Part shown: in pieces, positions 1-18,290 of the stretch
How positions within the stretch are numbered: position 1 is the stretch's first letter
How the letters are laid out: the number at the start of each line of letters is the position of its first letter
Virus record (IMG/VR): IMGVR_UViG_3300024518_004182
Span: 1-22,193 of that record
DNA length: 22,193 bases
Direction: 5' to 3' (one strand)
DNA from: a virus
The notes under the pieces: generated by a model
Databases searched by the model: none
Seen by the model: only the letters and a program-made list of their open reading frames with translations
Told to the model about the DNA's origin: nothing
Position numbers and translations under genes: made by a program

Positions 1-288
1 AGATAATCCTGTAATAACTACACATTCTATTTTGGGAACCATGTAAATTGTTCTGACCCAGAACTTGCCATCAAATTTTTCTACCCTTTTGTCAAGAGAG
101 TGGAAAATATAGGCAAACCTGATTGCACCTATGTCTTCCTTCAATCCCCCAGTAAAATATGAAACCACCTCAGTGGCCATCTCTTCAGAGTGGAGTTCGG
201 TGGATTTTAAAGGGAAGTATCTTCTCATACCCCTTTTGTGCTCTTTGAGGATTGAACTATCCATTAATTTATCAAGAATCTTGTTCAT
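1..288 (-). CDS. Hypothetical protein, 3' end cut off by window edge
   Basis: An open minus-strand frame runs from an ATG at 288-286 to the left edge without a stop, giving the first 96 residues (MNKILDKLMDSSILKEHKRG at the start). The reading is soluble and mixed-charge, with no signal peptide or membrane segment, and I do not recognise a domain. A plus-strand open frame across the same bases (131-343) is shorter and starts in the middle of it. The minus reading is favoured because the next four genes also lie on this strand. Codons are ordinary for this genome. A second possible start is the ninth codon (MDSS). It follows a 218-nt leader with a strong hairpin. Real gene likely, function unknown. 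Confidence 0.6.
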   Translation of the reverse strand, partial: MNKILDKLMDSSILKEHKRGMRRYFPLKSTELHSEEMATEVVSYFTGGLKEDIGAIRFAYIFHSLDKRVEKFDGKFWVRTIYMVPKIECVVITGLS

Positions 289-506
289 GATGTATAAATT
301 TTTTAAATTAAACAATACCAATACAATCTATGTGTACTGGTGAAAAAAGAGTGGTCAAATGTAAGGCAAGACCAGACCTCCAAATCTTTTAACCAACCTT
401 CAGTAGCCACAGGGTTTCATCCCCGCATAACGTGACTACTTAAATTGGCAAGACCCTGCAACCCCATCCAACACCACATGATGATGGATAGTGTAAGACT
501 TGCGTC
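289..506 (-). other. Structured leader between two minus-strand genes
   Basis: This gap of 218 bases holds no convincing gene. Read on the minus strand it contains a hairpin at 440-402, two direct copies of GGCAAGACC (plus-strand 365-373 and 447-455) flanking that hairpin, and an imperfect ATCCA/TGGAT hairpin near the stop of the upstream gene. An AT-rich stretch of about 50 bases leads to the start codon at 288. I found no clear Bacteroidota promoter here. Confidence 0.4.
402..440 (-). other. 39-nt hairpin, 9-bp closing stem
   Basis: On the minus strand AGTAGTCAC (440-432) pairs with GTGGCTACT (410-402), nine pairs with one G-U. The inside holds a second small stem, GGG with a 7-nt loop and CCC, offset by a one-sided bulge of about eight bases. 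No T-run follows, so it is not an ordinary terminator. It lies in the leader of the gene ending at 1. Confidence 0.5.
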
Positions 507-689
507 CTACTTTCTACCTTTTCTGGCAGTTGGGGTTTTTTTCTTAAGCAGGTTTGGGAAACACCCTTCGGTGAGTGTTTCAGATTGAGGAGAGACTATG
601 TAAACAATAGTCATTTCCTCTGTCTTCTGTATTTGTTCAGACTGGATATAGTCTGCAACAAACTGCTTATATGCTTTATCATCACTCAT
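507..689 (-). CDS. Small hypothetical protein, 60 aa
   Basis: The chosen start is the ATG at 689-687, giving MSDDKAYKQFVADYIQSEQI and a basic C-terminus (KKKTPTARKGRK). The frame stays open upstream to an ATG at 746, but that extension would run back through the terminator-like hairpin at 725-765 and adds a hydrophobic stretch unlike the rest, so the shorter form is preferred. The protein is soluble, helical in its first half and positively charged at the end. No family is recognised. It is the fourth of five consecutive minus-strand genes. A plus-strand frame at 585-824 overlaps both this gene and its neighbour and is taken as a shadow. Confidence 0.5.
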   Translation of the reverse strand: MSDDKAYKQFVADYIQSEQIQKTEEMTIVYIVSPQSETLTEGCFPNLLKKKTPTARKGRK

Positions 690-724
690 GATAAAATAAT
701 TTATGTGTTTCCTAAAAAGAATAA

Positions 725-765
725 ACCACCATGTTGCTGGAAACACAGTAACACAGCATGGTGGT
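725..765 (-). terminator. Hairpin with U-rich tail after the 204-aa gene
   Basis: On the minus strand ACCACCATG (765-757) pairs perfectly with CATGGTGGT (733-725). CTG (756-754) and CAG (739-737) extend the helix across a three-base bulge. The hairpin begins six bases after the stop codon of the gene at 772-1386 and is followed by a T-rich run (TTTATTCTTTTT), as expected for an intrinsic terminator. Confidence 0.6.
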
Positions 766-771
766 GTTTGA

Positions 772-1386
772 TTAATATATTAGGTAATCATGATACATTA
801 TATGATTGTCACCCACAAAACTAAATTGCTTTATAGACTTCAAATTATAATCACCTTCTACCTGATAGAGAGTGTCTACCTTTCTGCCGTCTAATGTGAC
901 AACATCAGCAGTTAGAGTACCATTTTCTTGACCCCAGTTTTCAATAGCTAGAGCTGTAGTTTTTATAACATATTTTTTTCCTTCTTCTTCCATTCTAAGA
1001 TGTTGGAAGTTGATATAAATATCTCCTTCCCGATATGATGTAATCAAATAATTATCACAACACCTTTTTTCTGTAATAGTGTGTGCGGGAAAGTCTTCAT
1101 AAGACTCCCCATCTTGTTTAGCTTTAAGCAAAATTTTATAAATGTTAAAAAGCTCTTCTGAGCTTTCTTCTTTCCAAAACCTGTTCTTACCATACATCTC
1201 AATAACTGCCCACTCAATTGAGTGTTGATTATATAACCACCGACTTTCTTCATAACTGAAATATAATTCAAAGCAACTTTTCATATGCCCAATAGTATGA
1301 CTTGGGTTAGAAAATTCTGAGAATTCAGCAATTAGAAATCTAGTATTGTTGTTAGAAGTTTTAGAAAATACTTTTAAATTATTCAT
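772..1386 (-). CDS. Hypothetical protein, 204 aa
   Basis: The ATG at 1386-1384 is chosen because an A-rich leader (ACAAACCAAATTAACT) stands directly before it, like the leaders of several virion genes further right. An in-frame ATG at 1410 would add eight residues but lies inside a hairpin. The protein is soluble and mixed alpha/beta, with an N-terminal segment rich in Ser, Asn and Phe, a central acidic helix (EESSEELFNIYKILLKAKQD) and a C-terminal part that looks beta-rich (TTALAIENW, LTADVVTLDGRKVDTLYQV). There is no signal peptide or membrane segment and no motif I recognise. It is the longest gene of the left arm and the most secure of that group. Confidence 0.7.
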   Translation of the reverse strand: MNNLKVFSKTSNNNTRFLIAEFSEFSNPSHTIGHMKSCFELYFSYEESRWLYNQHSIEWAVIEMYGKNRFWKEESSEELFNIYKILLKAKQDGESYEDFPAHTITEKRCCDNYLITSYREGDIYINFQHLRMEEEGKKYVIKTTALAIENWGQENGTLTADVVTLDGRKVDTLYQVEGDYNLKSIKQFSFVGDNHIMYHDYLIY

Positions 1387-1408
1387 AGTTAATTTGGTTT
1401 GTACTACC

Positions 1409-1428
1409 ATACCCTATGAAGTATGGCA
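1409..1428 (-). other. Hairpin upstream of the 204-aa gene
   Basis: CCATAC and GTATGG are perfect complements around an 8-base loop (plus-strand 1409-1414 and 1423-1428). The hairpin covers the alternative ATG at 1410 of the next gene and would hide it, which favours the downstream start at 1386 or suggests translational control. Confidence 0.45.
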
Positions 1429-1448
1429 GGAGTTTAAGTAATAAATAG

Positions 1449-1500
1449 AACCCACAGCCCGACTTGAACAGGCAGCACACCTATAGCAGTGGTGTGGGTT
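1449..1500 (-). ncRNA. 52-nt tRNA-like three-way element, copy 1
   Basis: Minus-strand layout: AACCCACA (1500-1493) pairs with TGTGGGTT (1456-1449), eight perfect pairs. A 19-nt middle follows (1492-1474). Then GCCTG (1473-1469) pairs with CGGGC (1461-1457) around the loop TTCAAGT (1468-1462). The arm matches a tRNA T-arm: five pairs, G-C closing the loop, a TTCRANY loop, joined without spacer to the 3' acceptor-like strand. The D and anticodon arms of a real tRNA are missing; only 19 nt stand in for the usual ~40. It starts four bases after the stop codon of the gene at 1505-1693. It could be a tRNA relic, a tRNA mimic processed by RNase P, or an mRNA 3'-end element. Confidence 0.6.
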
Positions 1501-1504
1501 ATTC

Positions 1505-1693
1505 TTAGGCTACCAACTTAAAGTTCATACCGTCCCAATGTATGAACTTTCCGTTGAAGTAGAACACCTGATAGGTGTAGGTTGCCCCACCACCTGAGCG
1601 TTCTAACAACTCAGTAGAAATGGGCTGTAATCCACCCATTCTAGCTTTGTGGAAGCCATCCCACAAAGCCTTAAGAAATTTCTTCTTATCCAT
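1505..1693 (-). CDS. Small hypothetical protein, 62 aa
   Basis: The frame starts at the ATG at 1693 (MDKKKFLKALWDGFHKARMG) after an AT-rich leader and stops with TAA at 1507-1505. It has a basic amphipathic N-terminal helix and a C-terminal half rich in aromatics (TYTYQVFYFNGKFIHWDGMNF) that reads as a small beta-sheet. No signal peptide or membrane span is seen and the family is not recognised. It lies between two 52-nt tRNA-like elements, one following its own stop and one at the head of its leader. Confidence 0.5.
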   Translation of the reverse strand: MDKKKFLKALWDGFHKARMGGLQPISTELLERSGGGATYTYQVFYFNGKFIHWDGMNFKLVA

Positions 1694-1732
1694 AATAATA
1701 TATATTTAGGATTAAAGATTCCTATCAACACC

Positions 1733-1790
1733 AAGCCCTGATAGTATAGGCTTTCCTCCTACAAGCACTTACATCTTGATTCTCGGAGGA
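1733..1790 (-). other. Tandem hairpins in leader of the 62-aa gene
   Basis: Two hairpins abut. TCCTCC and GGAGGA (1785-1790 and 1754-1759) enclose a 25-nt loop, and AAGCC/GGCTT (plus-strand 1733-1737 and 1749-1753) closes an 11-nt loop. With the 52-nt element at 1797-1848 they form a chain of three structures in a 160-nt gap without a gene. Confidence 0.4.
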
Positions 1791-1796
1791 CTGTAG

Positions 1797-1848
1797 AACC
1801 ACCCAAGGGTTTTGCTCCCCTGCAAGTCAGCATCTAGCTGAGGTGGTT
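1797..1848 (-). ncRNA. 52-nt tRNA-like three-way element, copy 2
   Basis: Minus-strand layout: AACCACCT (1848-1841) pairs with GGGTGGTT (1804-1797), eight pairs with one G-U. A 19-nt middle (1840-1822) includes a CAGC/GCTG hairpin with a 5-nt loop and a 6-nt linker. AGGGG (1821-1817) pairs with CCCTT (1809-1805), with one G-U, around the loop AGCAAAA. Every segment has the same length as in the copy at 1449-1500, though the sequences differ, which points to a conserved fold rather than a simple repeat. TTGC in the linker can pair with GCAA in the 7-nt loop, a possible pseudoknot. It begins five bases after the stop codon of the gene at 1854-2168. Confidence 0.6.
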
Positions 1849-1853
1849 AAGGT

Positions 1854-2168
1854 TTAGAAGTCTATGGTGTCTACACAGACTTCTAAAGATTTTGTAGAAA
1901 ATGGTTTAGTGTCTGGTAGATATAGTGTATCTATCTGCCAATGAGGACCAAAAGCCCTGTTGGCAGCAGATAACTCAATCTTATTCATAGAAAAGACCAC
2001 AGTTGGCTGTGGCCAATGCAGATTAGGCTCATGCGCCTGCATTCCTACAGACACAATAGAACCAAATTTTGCAACCCACCCCTTAGAGGTAAGCTGCAAA
2101 TTGCTACAGTCTACTGATGTGCCACATTTCTTTGTGGCATATGTAGACATTCCTACTAATACTTTCAT
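1854..2168 (-). CDS. Hypothetical protein, 104 aa
   Basis: The start chosen is the ATG at 2168-2166 (MKVLVGMSTYATKKCGTSVD). The frame is open to an ATG at 2234, but that 22-residue extension reaches the edge of the structured region and reads as random hydrophobic sequence. The protein has an N-terminal glycine/serine part with two cysteines, a Trp/His/Pro-rich middle (MQAHEPNLHWPQPTVVFSMN) and a C-terminal beta-like segment ending VCVDTIDF. No family is recognised. A plus-strand frame at 1960-2214 overlaps it and cannot be fully excluded, but orientation and the structured gap after its stop match the other minus genes. It would be first in the leftward transcription unit. Confidence 0.5.
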   Translation of the reverse strand: MKVLVGMSTYATKKCGTSVDCSNLQLTSKGWVAKFGSIVSVGMQAHEPNLHWPQPTVVFSMNKIELSAANRAFGPHWQIDTLYLPDTKPFSTKSLEVCVDTIDF

Positions 2169-2234
2169 AACAATAAGGTTTTGTATCCCCTTATACACAT
2201 GTACAAGAGGATAGATTAAATAATAATTTAACAT

Positions 2235-2372
2235 AGATAGACAGGTTCAGAACCAGAGACTTCCTTTGTCTCTGTGCTCCCTTCCATCACAAGCACACAC
2301 ACATGCTAAGTACTTGTGCAAGACACAAGACTCTATGTATGCCCACTGACAGAAAAAAAACACTGTCTATCT
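2235..2372. other. 138-nt multi-hairpin domain at the strand switch
   Basis: AGATAGACAG (2235-2244) and CTGTCTATCT (2363-2372) are perfect 10-base complements closing a 138-nt domain. Inside are CAGAGAC/GTCTCTG (2254-2260 and 2268-2274, 7-nt loop) and CTTGTG (2313-2318), which can pair with CACAAG on either side (2288-2293 or 2324-2329). CTGTC at 2363-2367 can instead pair locally with GACAG at 2348-2352. Two mutually exclusive pairings suggest a switchable RNA, probably in the leader of the leftward unit, or a DNA replication or recombination site. The plus-strand frame at 2316-2519 crosses several hairpins and is not believed. Confidence 0.5.
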
Positions 2373-2378
2373 GCACCA

Positions 2379-2483
2379 GGTCCGCATGCTCTTCAGCATG
2401 GGGGGACCCACTACAAATTTTTTTACCGGGGATTAATTAATAGAATCCCCCACAGATTTCAACACATGCATTTGGGGGCATGT
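2379..2483. other. Three-hairpin cluster in divergent intergenic region
   Basis: Three strong inverted repeats follow each other. CATGCT-cttc-AGCATG (2385-2400) is flanked by GGTCC (2379-2383) and GGACC (2404-2408). GGGGATT and AATCCCC enclose nine AT-rich bases (2428-2450). ACATGC and GCATGT surround a G-rich loop (2464-2483). They lie where gene direction changes and where the plus strand becomes strongly G-rich, as at some phage replication origins or bidirectional control regions. No iterons are evident, so the role is open. Confidence 0.45.
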
Positions 2484-2532
2484 ACATTTCATGGCTTGCA
2501 TTATGTGGTATTCATATAAATAGTTTAGAGGG

Positions 2533-2564
2533 TTTGTGATATTGTTATTAAAGTGATATATTTG
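2533..2564 (+). promoter_or_regulatory. Bacteroidota-type promoter for the 2579 gene
   Basis: TTTG (2533-2536) and TATATTTG (2557-2564) are separated by 20 bases, matching the -33 TTTG / -7 TAnnTTTG form used by the Bacteroidota primary sigma factor. Only 14 bases separate the -7 box from the ATG at 2579, so the mRNA would have an extremely short leader. Confidence 0.75.
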
Positions 2565-2578
2565 TTAAAAATAAAGTT

Positions 2579-2863
2579 ATGGCAAAAAGGAAGAGTATAC
2601 GTGTTAGTGCAGAGGAGGCAGAGGAGATTATGCGTGAGGCATATGACAATAGTTACAGGTTATTGATGGGGGAGGTTAGTTACAGGGGATTAGAGCGGGA
2701 GTGCAAGGAGAGGGATGCAGATATGTATTTAACATATTACAGTGACGAGGGTGCTACATTGGAGGAGGTTGAGGAAATGTTAGAGTGGTATGAGAGCAAG
2801 GAGTGGTATGAGAGGTGTGGTGTTATAAAGAGGTATATAGAGAGGAAGTTTAAGAAAGGTTAA
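2579..2863 (+). CDS. Small charged hypothetical protein, 94 aa
   Basis: This is the first plus-strand gene after the strand switch, starting MAKRKSIRVSAEEAEEIMRE. It is almost entirely helical and highly charged, with a Tyr- and Glu-rich middle (SDEGATLEEVEEMLEWYES) and a basic C-terminus (RYIERKFKKG). No membrane segment, signal peptide or catalytic motif is seen and the family is not recognised. The coding strand is very G-rich: 24 G against 6 C in bases 2581-2640, with GAG, AGG and TTG codons preferred. The promoter directly upstream suggests expression by the unmodified host polymerase, hence possibly early. Size and charge would fit a small regulator or host-interaction protein, but that is only inference. 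Confidence 0.7.
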   Translation: MAKRKSIRVSAEEAEEIMREAYDNSYRLLMGEVSYRGLERECKERDADMYLTYYSDEGATLEEVEEMLEWYESKEWYERCGVIKRYIERKFKKG

Positions 2864-2869
2864 TAAACT

Positions 2870-2901
2870 TTTGGAGTTTAGATTTAAATTAATTATATTT
2901 G
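2870..2901 (+). promoter_or_regulatory. Bacteroidota-type promoter for the 2930 gene
   Basis: TTTG (2870-2873) and TATATTTG (2894-2901) are again separated by exactly 20 bases, the same -7 octamer and spacer as the promoter at 2533-2564. The ATG lies 28 bases after the -7 box. Confidence 0.75.
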
Positions 2902-2929
2902 AGATATTAAATAACAAAATAAGTTTATT

Positions 2930-3151
2930 ATGGAAAGCACACAGGTTGAAGAAGAAGTAAAGGAGTTAAGCAAGGAGGAGTTAAAGGAGCGGCGGGAGAA
3001 GGTTACTGCATATTATGAGGATCACATTCCACATTTGAAGGTACAGTTAGAGTATGAGCAGTTATTGACAGAGATAGAGGAAAACCGTGCAAAGCGTGCA
3101 CAGGCACAGAAGTTTTTGGCACAGATCATGGCACCTGAAGAAAAGGCATAA
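2930..3151 (+). CDS. Small coiled-coil protein, 73 aa
   Basis: A 73-residue protein starting MESTQVEEEVKELSKEELKE and ending FLAQIMAPEEKA. Nearly all of it is predicted helix: an acidic first third, then a central part around YYEDHIPHLKVQLEYEQLLT, then EIEENRAKRAQAQKF. The hydrophobic spacing fits a coiled coil. It reminds me of short helical proteins encoded close to lysis or packaging genes in other phages, but I cannot name a family. It has its own promoter and is followed by an intrinsic terminator at 3183-3216, so it may be a single-gene transcript. Codon use shares the G-rich, C-poor pattern of both neighbours. Confidence 0.7.
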   Translation: MESTQVEEEVKELSKEELKERREKVTAYYEDHIPHLKVQLEYEQLLTEIEENRAKRAQAQKFLAQIMAPEEKA

Positions 3152-5350: not shown

Positions 5351-6156
5351 TGGGATTAATATTTATAGAAAAGGGTCACAAGTATGAAAGCCAGGATGGT
5401 ATCATCTGGACATCTGTTACATCTTTTATATCTAAGCTTAAATCTTCTTTTGACAAAAAGGGGGTGGCAAAAAAATGCTCAACAAAAAAAGGTTCTAAAT
5501 GGTATGGCTTAGATCCTCAGGTGGTAATGAACATTTGGGAGGGAGAAACACAAAGAGCTATAGACCTGGGAAACTGGTATCATAATCAAAGAGAAACAGA
5601 TATTTTAGATTTTAAAACCATTGAAAGAGAAGGTGTTAACCTACCAATTATTAAACCTATAATTGAAGATGGTATAAAACAAGCTCCTAAGCAAAAGCTG
5701 ATAGATGGTGTATATCCTGAACATTTTGTTTATTTGAAGTCTGCTGGATTGTGTGGGCAGGCAGACCTTGTAGAAATTGTTAATGGAAATATAAACATCA
5801 CAGACTACAAGACCAATAAAGAGATTAAAGAAAAGAGTTTTGTGAACTGGGAAGGAATATCTTCTAAGATGTATATTCCTGTAAACCATTTGGATGATTG
5901 TAATCTAAACCATTATAATTTACAAATGAGTATATATGCTTATATAATTAAAAAGCATAATCCTAAATTGAAAGTTGGAGCATTAAAAATACAACATGTA
6001 AAGTTTGAATCAGAAAGTCAGGATGAGTATGGATACCCGGTAACAAAGTATGTAAATGGAGATCCTGTGATTAAAGAAATAAAAATGTATAATCTTCCAT
6101 ATTTAAAAGAAGAGGTTACCAACTTAATAATGTGGATTAAAGACCAGAGACCATGA
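5350..6156 (+). CDS. PD-(D/E)XK nuclease, RecB/Cas4-like
   Basis: 268 residues with the full motif order of RecB-like nucleases: LGNWYH (G74, H78; GxxH motif), PEHFVY (E124), LCGQADLVEI (D139), ITDYKTNKE (D152, K154), and HYNLQMSIYAY (Q192, Y196; QxxxY motif). D139, D152 and K154 would form the metal site. Such enzymes trim or degrade DNA ends and in phages act in recombination, host DNA degradation or packaging. The length suits a single nuclease domain. There is no Cas4-type four-cysteine cluster, which argues for exonuclease rather than Cas4. Translationally coupled on both sides (TAATG in, ATGA out). Confidence 0.9.
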   Translation: MGLIFIEKGHKYESQDGIIWTSVTSFISKLKSSFDKKGVAKKCSTKKGSKWYGLDPQVVMNIWEGETQRAIDLGNWYHNQRETDILDFKTIEREGVNLPIIKPIIEDGIKQAPKQKLIDGVYPEHFVYLKSAGLCGQADLVEIVNGNINITDYKTNKEIKEKSFVNWEGISSKMYIPVNHLDDCNLNHYNLQMSIYAYIIKKHNPKLKVGALKIQHVKFESESQDEYGYPVTKYVNGDPVIKEIKMYNLPYLKEEVTNLIMWIKDQRP

Positions 6157-7460
6157 GGGTTGAAATATTTAGCATATTAGATTATTATGGCAATAAAAAT
6201 AATGGCTCTGAAATGCTCCCTCTTTATTTGGAGCATTACACTAATAGTTTCCCAGAGTCTAAAATAAATATTTACATGTCTAACTACCCAAAAAATTATA
6301 ATGGGTATGAAGTTCCTCTGCTGAATAAATATGGGTGTAATATTGATATTATAGAATTAGACAAAACAGAAAAATATTATGATTATAGATTAACAAAAGA
6401 AGTGAGAAACTATTTAAAAAAAGAAAAGGAATTTAGAGATAGTGTTTGGAAGGAGTCTAAAGCTGATTGGGTTATATTGTGTGACATAGATGAAATTTTG
6501 ATGATATCAGATGATGAGTTAAAAAATGAAGATGATGATATTATACAGTTTGAGGGATACTACATGAAAAGGTATAATAAAAAATCTAAGTTTAATCAAT
6601 TAACTTATGGGTTTTATGCTACTGTTTATGATAAGCCATGTATTTTTAGACCCAGTATAAAAGAAATGAATTTTAGCCTTGGTCAACATTCTTGTAAACC
6701 CACTACAAAAAAAATAAAAAAAAGCAATTATAAGCTATTGCACTATAGAAAAAAATTTTTTGATTTATCACCTATTTCAAGAAATATACCAAAAATTGAG
6801 TTGGTACGAACAGATATTAAAAAAGAAGTTGATGATAATTATATAACCTTATCTTTCTTTCAATCAAATATATTAATAGATGATAAATACGTTAATAAGA
6901 AAATAAACATAAGCAAGGAAGGCATATGGATTGATAATGTTTTAGAGGAACATCATTATACTGATTATCAATTATGTGAAGAGTTAGTAAAGTTTTTAAA
7001 TGAAGAAAATGCTCAGTCTATTGTAGATTTTGGTTGTGGTCTTGGTAGTTATGTTAATTGTTTTAGAGAAAATAATATAGAGGCAGATGGTTATGATGGC
7101 AATCCAAGAACTAATATGCACAATAAATATTGTAATACTCTTGATTTATCAAAACCAATTAATATTAAAAAATATAATTGGGTAATGAGCTTTGAAGTGG
7201 GGGAGCACATACCTAAAGAATGCGAAGATGTGTTTATAGATAATATGCACAGAAGCAATAAAGATGGAATTATTTTAACATGGGCACCAATTGGACAGCC
7301 TGGTTTTGGGCATATAAATTGTCAAGATATAAATTATATAATAAATAAAATAACAAAATTAGGTTATACCTTAGATGTAAAACAAACAAATGAGTTAAGA
7401 GAGTCATGTGAGTTGCCATGGATAGGTTTAACGTTAATAGTATTAAGAAAAAATAAATAA
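6153..7460 (+). CDS. Glycosyltransferase-methyltransferase fusion
   Basis: 435 residues in two parts. Residues 1-180 resemble a GT-A type glycosyltransferase: nucleotide-binding start (EIFSILDYYGNKNNGSEMLP), and WVILCDIDEIL at 106-116 with the metal-binding DxD (D111, D113). Residues 268-433 are a class I SAM-dependent methyltransferase: motif I VDFGCGLGSYV (291-301), an acidic ribose-binding GYDGNP (313-318), VMSFEVGEHIP (344-354) and a late strand WIGLTLIVLR. The gene uses AAT, ATA and AAA codons and long A-runs more heavily than its neighbours, suggesting separate acquisition. It overlaps the nuclease stop by 4 nt. The target may be a virion glycan, a host surface sugar or modified DNA; the sequence does not decide. 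Confidence 0.85.
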   Translation: MRVEIFSILDYYGNKNNGSEMLPLYLEHYTNSFPESKINIYMSNYPKNYNGYEVPLLNKYGCNIDIIELDKTEKYYDYRLTKEVRNYLKKEKEFRDSVWKESKADWVILCDIDEILMISDDELKNEDDDIIQFEGYYMKRYNKKSKFNQLTYGFYATVYDKPCIFRPSIKEMNFSLGQHSCKPTTKKIKKSNYKLLHYRKKFFDLSPISRNIPKIELVRTDIKKEVDDNYITLSFFQSNILIDDKYVNKKINISKEGIWIDNVLEEHHYTDYQLCEELVKFLNEENAQSIVDFGCGLGSYVNCFRENNIEADGYDGNPRTNMHNKYCNTLDLSKPINIKKYNWVMSFEVGEHIPKECEDVFIDNMHRSNKDGIILTWAPIGQPGFGHINCQDINYIINKITKLGYTLDVKQTNELRESCELPWIGLTLIVLRKNK

Positions 7461-17050: not shown

Positions 17051-17251
17051 ATGTCTATTTATAAAAAAGCTCCGTTTAAAAAAACCACAGAATTCACCAA
17101 CAGTGATGTCTCTAAGATAATTGCATCAAAGAAAGTGGGGAAAGATATTTTGTCTAGAGATCACTTAGATAATGCTGCTGCAAAAACAGCAGGGTTAATA
17201 GATGGCGATATTTATCATACAGCAGGATTTATTAAAGTAGTTTATACATAA
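17051..17251 (+). CDS. Small structural protein candidate, 66 aa
   Basis: 66 residues starting MSIYKKAPFKKTTEFTNSDV. The second half, AAAKTAGLIDGDIYHTAGFI plus KVVYT, follows a pattern (AGL-x-x-GD-x-Y-x-T-x-G-x-(L/I)-KVVY) that I associate with the ends of small virion or fibre-tip proteins in several phages. This is recollection, not a search. It would be a small beta-rich module, perhaps a head or tail decoration. It lies between the capsid terminator and the 338-aa gene. Confidence 0.6.
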   Translation: MSIYKKAPFKKTTEFTNSDVSKIIASKKVGKDILSRDHLDNAAAKTAGLIDGDIYHTAGFIKVVYT

Positions 17252-17260
17252 TATTAAATA

Positions 17261-17273
17261 AAAACCAACAAAA
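17261..17273 (+). promoter_or_regulatory. AAAACCAACAAAA leader
   Basis: This is the second copy of the A/C-rich leader, ending at the base before the ATG at 17274. It matches the sequence before 14099 in its first ten bases and the one before 21635 almost completely. Confidence 0.5.
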
Positions 17274-18290
17274 ATGAGTGATTACACAATTGTAGAAAAG
17301 TACCAACAAGGTAAAGATACAACCGTTGCTATTAAGCCATATTTTAATCCTGATAAAGATAATATGGGATTGCAAAATTATGGGATGGCTTTACATGACG
17401 GTGTTTGGCACCAAGAAAGTTTAGCATGTTTAGAAATGAATGGTGTAAAAAGATATGTGACAGGGCTTAATGAATTTGCTCCAGAAGTTAAATTATTGCC
17501 TCCTGGAGAAAAAGAAATAAAAATAAAAGAAATAAGAAGAGTTGTAGCACAGCTTGAGCAAGAATTAGCAGCTAATGTTATTGATCTTGAAGATAAAGAA
17601 TTCTGGAACAAAGTTTCTTTGCTTAGACCTGACAATGATAAATTTTGGTCAAGAATAGAATTAAGATGTGGTAATGACCCTGTGTATCTTGATCCTGTAA
17701 AAGACCCATATGACTTAATCAAAATTTATGCTATTAACGCTGGCGGGTTTTCTATAGTAGCTAAATCTTTAAAAAAAGCTAAACACTCTAATAATAAATA
17801 TAAATTTTATTTAGATCAGCTAGAAGAAGCAATTAGCACCCGTACTGAATATTCAAAAATAAGAAACAAGGCTTTGTCTCAATTAGAAAGCATGTATAAT
17901 AAAAATGTTACAAAGCTAATGTATGTGGCTAAATGTGTAGATGTAGAAAGCACTCAATATACCAAATCAACATCTAATGATGTAATCTATGAAAACATGG
18001 ATTTGTTTATTAATGGTGAGGGAACTGAAAGAAATAAGAAAAAAGCCGCAGAGAAGTTTTTGTCAACAGCAAAAATGACAATGAAGGATTTAAAAATTTC
18101 TGCATTGGTTAAAGATGCTTTATACTATAGGTTTATAACAAGAAAGCAAAATGGCTGGATAGAGACTTTAGATACAGCGGTAAAATTAGGGAAGTCTCCT
18201 ACAGAAGTAGTTGCTTTTTTAAAAAACCCGGAAAATGAAGATTCTTTAGCTCATATAAAAGGCAAAGTAGAACAGTATTGGAATTCTTAA
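17274..18290 (+). CDS. Hypothetical head-module protein, 338 aa
   Basis: 338 soluble residues between the capsid gene and the connector candidate. The first ~70 residues look beta-rich (IVEKYQQGKDTTVAIKPYFN). A charged helix follows (EIKIKEIRRVVAQLEQELAA), then a mostly helical region with SLKKAKHSNNKYKFYLDQLE and RNKALSQLESMYNKNVTKLM. The C-terminus (GKSPTEVVAFLKNPENEDSL) is again helical. No enzymatic motif, signal peptide or membrane segment is seen. A head auxiliary or internal (cargo) virion protein is plausible from position, but nothing more can be said. Confidence 0.7.
   Translation: MSDYTIVEKYQQGKDTTVAIKPYFNPDKDNMGLQNYGMALHDGVWHQESLACLEMNGVKRYVTGLNEFAPEVKLLPPGEKEIKIKEIRRVVAQLEQELAANVIDLEDKEFWNKVSLLRPDNDKFWSRIELRCGNDPVYLDPVKDPYDLIKIYAINAGGFSIVAKSLKKAKHSNNKYKFYLDQLEEAISTRTEYSKIRNKALSQLESMYNKNVTKLMYVAKCVDVESTQYTKSTSNDVIYENMDLFINGEGTERNKKKAAEKFLSTAKMTMKDLKISALVKDALYYRFITRKQNGWIETLDTAVKLGKSPTEVVAFLKNPENEDSLAHIKGKVEQYWNS

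Follow-up and report, generated by a model that had tools for sequence, protein, structure and literature searches.

The window analysed here, the whole 22,193-nt stretch of the virus contig IMGVR_UViG_3300024518_004182, is, judged by its genes, a 22-kb fragment of an uncultured crAss-like phage. Its terminase, portal, and major head protein match phage families, and relatives of the terminase are found among phage records that include Flavobacterium, Cellulophaga, and Bacteroides phages together with crAssphage. Genes from position 2579 onward are transcribed rightward and include an endolysin and the structural genes, and positions 1-2234 hold a leftward cluster of small genes. In the Crassvirales, the virion RNA polymerase transcribes the early genes, which make up an operon of their own (PMC10136315, PMC8375218), and from this literature and the gene order we infer that the leftward cluster is the early operon. 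A second contig, IMGVR_UViG_3300024520_000797 (L082, also recorded as L106), is 99.8% identical to the window over 7.4 kb and carries the leftward cluster about 4.3 kb further. We note that ORF 6153-7460 (435 aa) has no match in 80 terminase-bearing loci and appears to be inserted, the genes on either side of it being conserved.

Three leftward ORFs are of concern here, lying at 1854-2234 (likely start at 2168, TAA stop), 1505-1693 (62 aa, TAA stop), and 772-1410 (likely start at 1386), all on the minus strand. All three are orphans: apart from the near-identical contig L082, neither viral contigs, phage records, nor 36 records of relatives contain a homologue, and positions 1-3000 of the window have no match at all among phage records. 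The cluster is headed, just before its first gene, by a conserved element of the form CCCCGG..ATTTG..GGG..CCCCC (CTCCCCGGCTAAATTTTGAGTTGGGGATACCCCC; 2395-2431, minus strand), of which there are 14 non-identical copies in the window and its relatives (L006, L015, L024, L057, L074, L079, L147, L148, and others); it is a candidate for an early promoter, used by the virion polymerase, or for an mRNA leader. Positions 2240-2400, also ahead of the first leftward gene, form a long structured stretch in which the inverted repeat AGATAGACAG/CTGTCTATCT surrounds about 100 nt.

Two 52-nt elements, e1 (1449-1500) and e2 (1797-1848), lie between these genes on the minus strand. The original prediction gave them the same segment pattern, 8-19-5-7-5-8, and placed each just after a stop codon, and both claims hold at those coordinates: e1 begins 4 nt past the TAA of ORF 1505-1693 and e2 begins 5 nt past the TAA of ORF 1854-2234. 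Each has eight nucleotides paired with eight in a closing stem, a 19-nt segment, and an arm of 5 bp with a 7-nt loop that directly abuts the 3′ strand of this stem. The 3′ arm of e1 reads GCCTG-TTCAAGT-CGGGC; that of e2 reads AGGGG-AGCAAAA-CCCTT, and the 19-nt segment of e2 holds a 5′ hairpin, CAGC-TAGAT-GCTG. A scan of both strands of the window for the 8-19-5-7-5-8 geometry returned two matches, e1 and e2. With any spacer of 8-40 nt allowed, and at least four G-C pairs required in the closing stem and at least three in the arm, no such element occurred in 300 dinucleotide shuffles of the whole window, and shuffles of the 2.6-kb early region, scanned for 15 arm shapes, gave 0.013 matches each and in no case two that shared one geometry. 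The shared geometry of e1 and e2 is real and beyond chance.

Predicted folding differs between the two elements. For e2 the minimum-energy structure is a three-way junction that includes the T-like arm, stacked on the closing stem, with an arm probability of 0.9. For e1 the tRNA-like form (-19.1 kcal/mol) lies 2.3 kcal/mol above a long irregular hairpin (-21.4 kcal/mol), and the pairing probability of its T-like arm is about 0.01; ViennaRNA leaves out coaxial stacking, so these two energies leave room for the tRNA-like form. The proposed stacking of the arm on the closing stem, in the manner of a T arm on an acceptor stem, is thus borne out as geometry in both elements and as the predicted minimum in e2, but not as the predicted minimum in e1. 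Compared with shuffles, e1 has z scores of -2.08 on the coding strand and -0.65 on the complement, and e2 has -2.88 and -2.18; because the coding strand folds better in both cases, an RNA is favoured over a DNA cruciform. Folding beyond the level of shuffles is also seen in coding stretches of the early genes, so part of this signal belongs to these mRNAs in general. The stretch that separates e1 from the next start codon (1386-1448, minus strand) contains a hairpin, GCCATAC...GTATGGT (z -2.74), and two further hairpins predicted between e2 and the next start codon (1710-1796, minus strand) do not exceed shuffles (z -0.58).

The two elements belong to a wider pattern. Among 12 intergenic gaps of the leftward cluster there are four that open, no more than 12 nt from the stop codon, with a stem of 8 bp or longer; the mean in shuffles is 0.18 gaps, and four is reached in none of 2,000. 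These are the gaps with e2, e1, the element at 725-765, and L082 11570-11644. The third closed element (725-765, minus strand; L082 6646-6686) follows the stop codon of ORF 772-1410 by 6 nt and has a 9-bp stem, ACCACCATG/CATGGTGGT, and a T-rich tail. The fourth is a predicted four-way junction at about L082 11561-11650, which starts 8 nt after a stop codon and has a closing stem of 11-12 bp (z -3.97). The expectation of structured elements directly after stop codons is thereby upheld: e1 and e2 are stable, closed structures on the transcribed, coding strand, they exceed chance, and they resemble intercistronic 3′-end structures in these respects. Several more of the L082 gaps hold simple hairpins. 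One hairpin, AGCCTGTTAGATCAGGCACAA, is near-identical in three consecutive gaps (L082 7667-7709, 7983-8029, and 8546-8590), with a G-C pair changed to a G-U wobble in one copy; the hairpins precede ..TTTATTATG or ..TATATTATG starts, and the repeat is possibly an operator or a shuffling cassette.

The original prediction had further reasoned that the paired segments of e1 and e2 differ yet stay complementary, and that this speaks for selection on the fold. The argument presumes that the two are homologous, and on that point it is unsupported. Inside the elements, 12 of 44 positions are identical where 11.0 are expected, and the sequence that they share is limited to an initial TAACC and a final GGTTCTA. 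When e1 is scored with a covariance model of e2, the result is 5.9 bits in the sense direction and 6.2 bits in the antisense direction, and these near-equal scores indicate that only the palindromic closing stem is detected. A joint MAFFT alignment of e1 and e2 was gapped and useless for a joint model, and each was therefore modelled alone with its identical second copy. Sequence comparison gives no evidence that e1 and e2 form one homologous family.

Homologues in related phages, which the prediction had proposed to seek by covariance search, were not recovered either: the e1 and e2 models each lack a covariation-supported homologue and give no other match in 1.4 Mb of relatives. Free geometry scans of 1.06 and 2.19 Mb of relatives found no sense-strand, post-stop match outside the window phage, and a search of all viral contigs for TAACC..GGTTCTA returned the window phage and otherwise chance, coding, or unrelated matches. 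Neither element matches Rfam (release 15) at gathering or lax thresholds. The sole second copy of each, in L082, is identical to that in the window. All 16 of the differences between the window and L082 in the 7.4 kb common to both lie outside e1 and e2, in 210 bp at the left end (window 88-296, L082 7115-7323), and the other 7.1 kb are identical. This distribution suggests that a patch was exchanged by recombination or that strains are mixed.

A fold-based scan of the sequences following stop codons in relatives found multibranched elements in 13.7%, slightly above the 10.0% in shuffles, and exposed one recurrent RNA of 70-90 nt (covariance model R1; for example, L043 18362-18441, plus strand). 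Its start coincides with the stop codon of a small late gene or lies within a few nucleotides of it; this gene is in most copies the orthologue of window ORF 17051-17251, and the RNA is followed by the orthologue of ORF 17274-18290, a gene with no match in cultured phages. The R1 model finds one match per phage at 28 loci, with E-values of 1e-8 or better, and the majority of the related phages have the RNA. The closing stem is of 7 bp. The 5′ arm is interrupted by a 2x2 internal loop in which most bases are T, and the 3′ arm, of 6 bp, adjoins the closing stem and carries a loop of about 4 nt, which is not a T-loop. No T run follows the structure.

The evidence for selection on the R1 fold comes from several sides. 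Of its 22 pairs, 13 have changed on both sides; covariation amounts to 63 cells compared with 15.8 in shuffles, with none of 500 shuffles matching, and in slid controls pairing drops to 27-42%, compared with 97%. A model-free MAFFT alignment of 16 sequences agrees, and RNAalifold, run on 21 sequences without a given structure, reports compensatory changes in 10 of 15 pairs. The R1 RNA has no Rfam match and, on the evidence of Rfam release 15, has not been described before. It is absent at the same junction in the window, where the spacer is 22 nt (17252-17273, plus strand), and in L001, L046, L047, and L076, the last three being more distant relatives. The R1 RNA demonstrates that closed RNA structures under selection are positioned right at stop codons in this phage group. 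Like e1 and e2, it starts at or near a stop codon and has a closing stem of 7-8 bp and a 3′ arm adjoining that stem; unlike them, it belongs to late genes and is missing from the window phage, and its sequence, arm sizes, and loop are different. To judge by sequence, it is not homologous to e1 or e2.

We propose that e1 and e2 are structural caps at the ends of cistrons in a leftward early polycistronic mRNA, a reading to which we give a probability of roughly 0.4. Closed structures that follow stop codons on the coding strand, with unrelated sequences and no consistent U-tract, fit cistron 3′-end caps best. Starting 4-5 nt past the stop codon and closed by a GC-containing 8-bp stem, with the arm of e2 stacked on that stem, the cap would refold once the last or terminating ribosome departs; the folded cap would then most likely block 3′-to-5′ exonucleases or mark a site at which the mRNA is cut, and each small cistron would acquire a stability of its own. 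The two elements would be two of at least four caps in the gene cluster. In relatives, the same position and general architecture would be used with unrelated sequences, so that what recurs would be the position and the closed fold, not the likeness to tRNA. Transcription of the cluster as one mRNA, the blocking or processing by nucleases, and a job shared by e1, e2, and the R1 RNA are all presumed in this proposal; covariation is seen for the R1 RNA and not for e1 or e2, and since the three are not homologous, a common role would be argued from position and architecture.

Intercistronic stem-loops in the mRNAs of phages and bacteria are known to block 3′ exonucleases or to be cut by RNase III, as in the early mRNA of phage T7. 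Such structures in phage mRNA are thus of a known kind, and e1 and e2 share with them their stability, their place after stop codons in a polycistronic phage transcript, and the combination of diverse sequences with a common position. They differ in that e2, and possibly e1, is branched and not a simple hairpin. Apparently, e1 and e2 are new, lineage-specific examples, and this phage group seems to make repeated use of post-stop structures. We speculate, as a rather doubtful extension, that an aquatic crAss-like lineage uses closed, branched RNA caps at stop codons throughout, so that every cistron in its long mRNAs has a 3′ end to itself, with one late-operon cap constituting an undescribed conserved RNA family and the early caps, such as e1 and e2, turning over fast with their genes. 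Little is known of how crAss-like phages, one of the commonest groups of phages, set protein levels from long mRNAs, and the R1 RNA and the cluster of post-stop structures offer concrete places at which such mRNAs may be processed or protected.

Caps at cistron ends have to be weighed against attenuators or terminators, at which the polymerase of the early genes, probably the virion enzyme in crAss-like phages, would sometimes stop after each gene and so grade expression along the cluster. We regard this as unlikely, and it ranks first among the rivals, since a T-rich tail is found on two of the four early elements: TTATTCTTTTT follows the element at 725-765 and TTTTCTTAT the one at L082 11561, with CTATTTATT after e1, and a position after the stop codon is typical of terminators. 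However, e2 is followed by CTACAGTCC, a terminator scan flagged neither e1 nor e2, and neither has the GC-rich stem and succeeding U-tract of an intrinsic terminator. The tract after e1 is weak and there is none after e2 or the R1 RNA, which argues against plain terminators.

Translation insulators, structures that keep ribosomes from sliding on or reinitiating at the next gene or that shape its start region, would also account for elements that lie between stop and start codons in a dense gene cluster, and most L082 gaps do consist of a hairpin and then an unstructured ..AACAATTTATTATG-like start region. The distances make this improbable for e1 and e2, since the next start lies about 62 nt past e1 and 103 nt past e2, far beyond the reach of a start-site effect. 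Stop-codon readthrough stimulated by the structures is ruled out, as a second in-frame stop follows after 1 codon at e1 and after about 9 codons at e2, so that readthrough would give no useful extension.

That e1 and e2 serve as operators of translation or decay, bound through the shared feature TAACC...GGTTCTA by an RNA-binding protein of the phage or host, would explain why their ends agree despite unrelated interiors, and the AGCCTGTTAGATCAGGCACAA hairpin in three L082 gaps is what an operator would look like. We nevertheless think it distinctly improbable, because the shared letters are few and half of them are fixed by pairing, and the TAACC...GGTTCTA motif otherwise occurs at chance level in viral contigs.

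The odds are poorer again for recombination or shuffling cassettes, in which stem-loops between variable early genes aid gene exchange. The comparison here is with the promoter-early stem-loops (PeSLs) of T4-type phages (Arbiol 2010 and Comeau 2014, as cited in PMC4503421), which likewise are stem-loops between small hypervariable early genes. The flanking genes are orphans even against the closest relatives, marking the region as hypervariable, and L082 has its repeated hairpin, but e1 and e2 are not repeats of one another, promoter sites in or next to them are at the level of shuffles, and the coding-strand bias in folding points to RNA.

tRNA-like structures are known in several forms, among them viral TLS, mascRNA-type RNAs, and bacterial Y RNA, and the original prediction counted processing by RNase P or RNase Z, 3′-end protection, and a new family of tRNA mimics among the possible roles of e1 and e2. 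Every position of the T-loop consensus TTCRANN with G53-C61 is present in e1, which thus has all the conserved T-arm bases (G53, TTCAA, C61) along with 8+5 stacked pairs, and e2 has an acceptor-like stem with its stacked 5-bp/7-nt arm and keeps the C56-R57-A58 pattern in its loop, although it lacks T54 and T55. In place of the D and anticodon arms, however, there are 19 nt with at most one 4-bp hairpin; both elements continue with CTA after the stem and have no 3′ CCA; no tRNA or tmRNA gene is called in the window, nor does ARAGORN match either element. With these gaps, no Rfam match, no conserved homologues in the relatives searched, a T-like arm that e1 does not prefer, and a covarying RNA in relatives that has no T-loop, we consider tRNA mimicry very improbable, and the analysis removes a tempting but unsupported reading. 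A link to Y RNA through TROVE was also considered and rejected, the TROVE gene being absent from 18 records of relatives; crAss001 has such a gene (PMC8375218).

A further structure, which speaks for the cap reading, was seen among the early genes of two relatives. An intergenic three-way junction at about 870-1010 of L147 (minus strand) and on the minus strand of L148, with the conserved core AAGTGCYAAGATTWMCGGGGGTTATACCAA found in those two records only, is closed by stems of 15-17 bp that differ in sequence.
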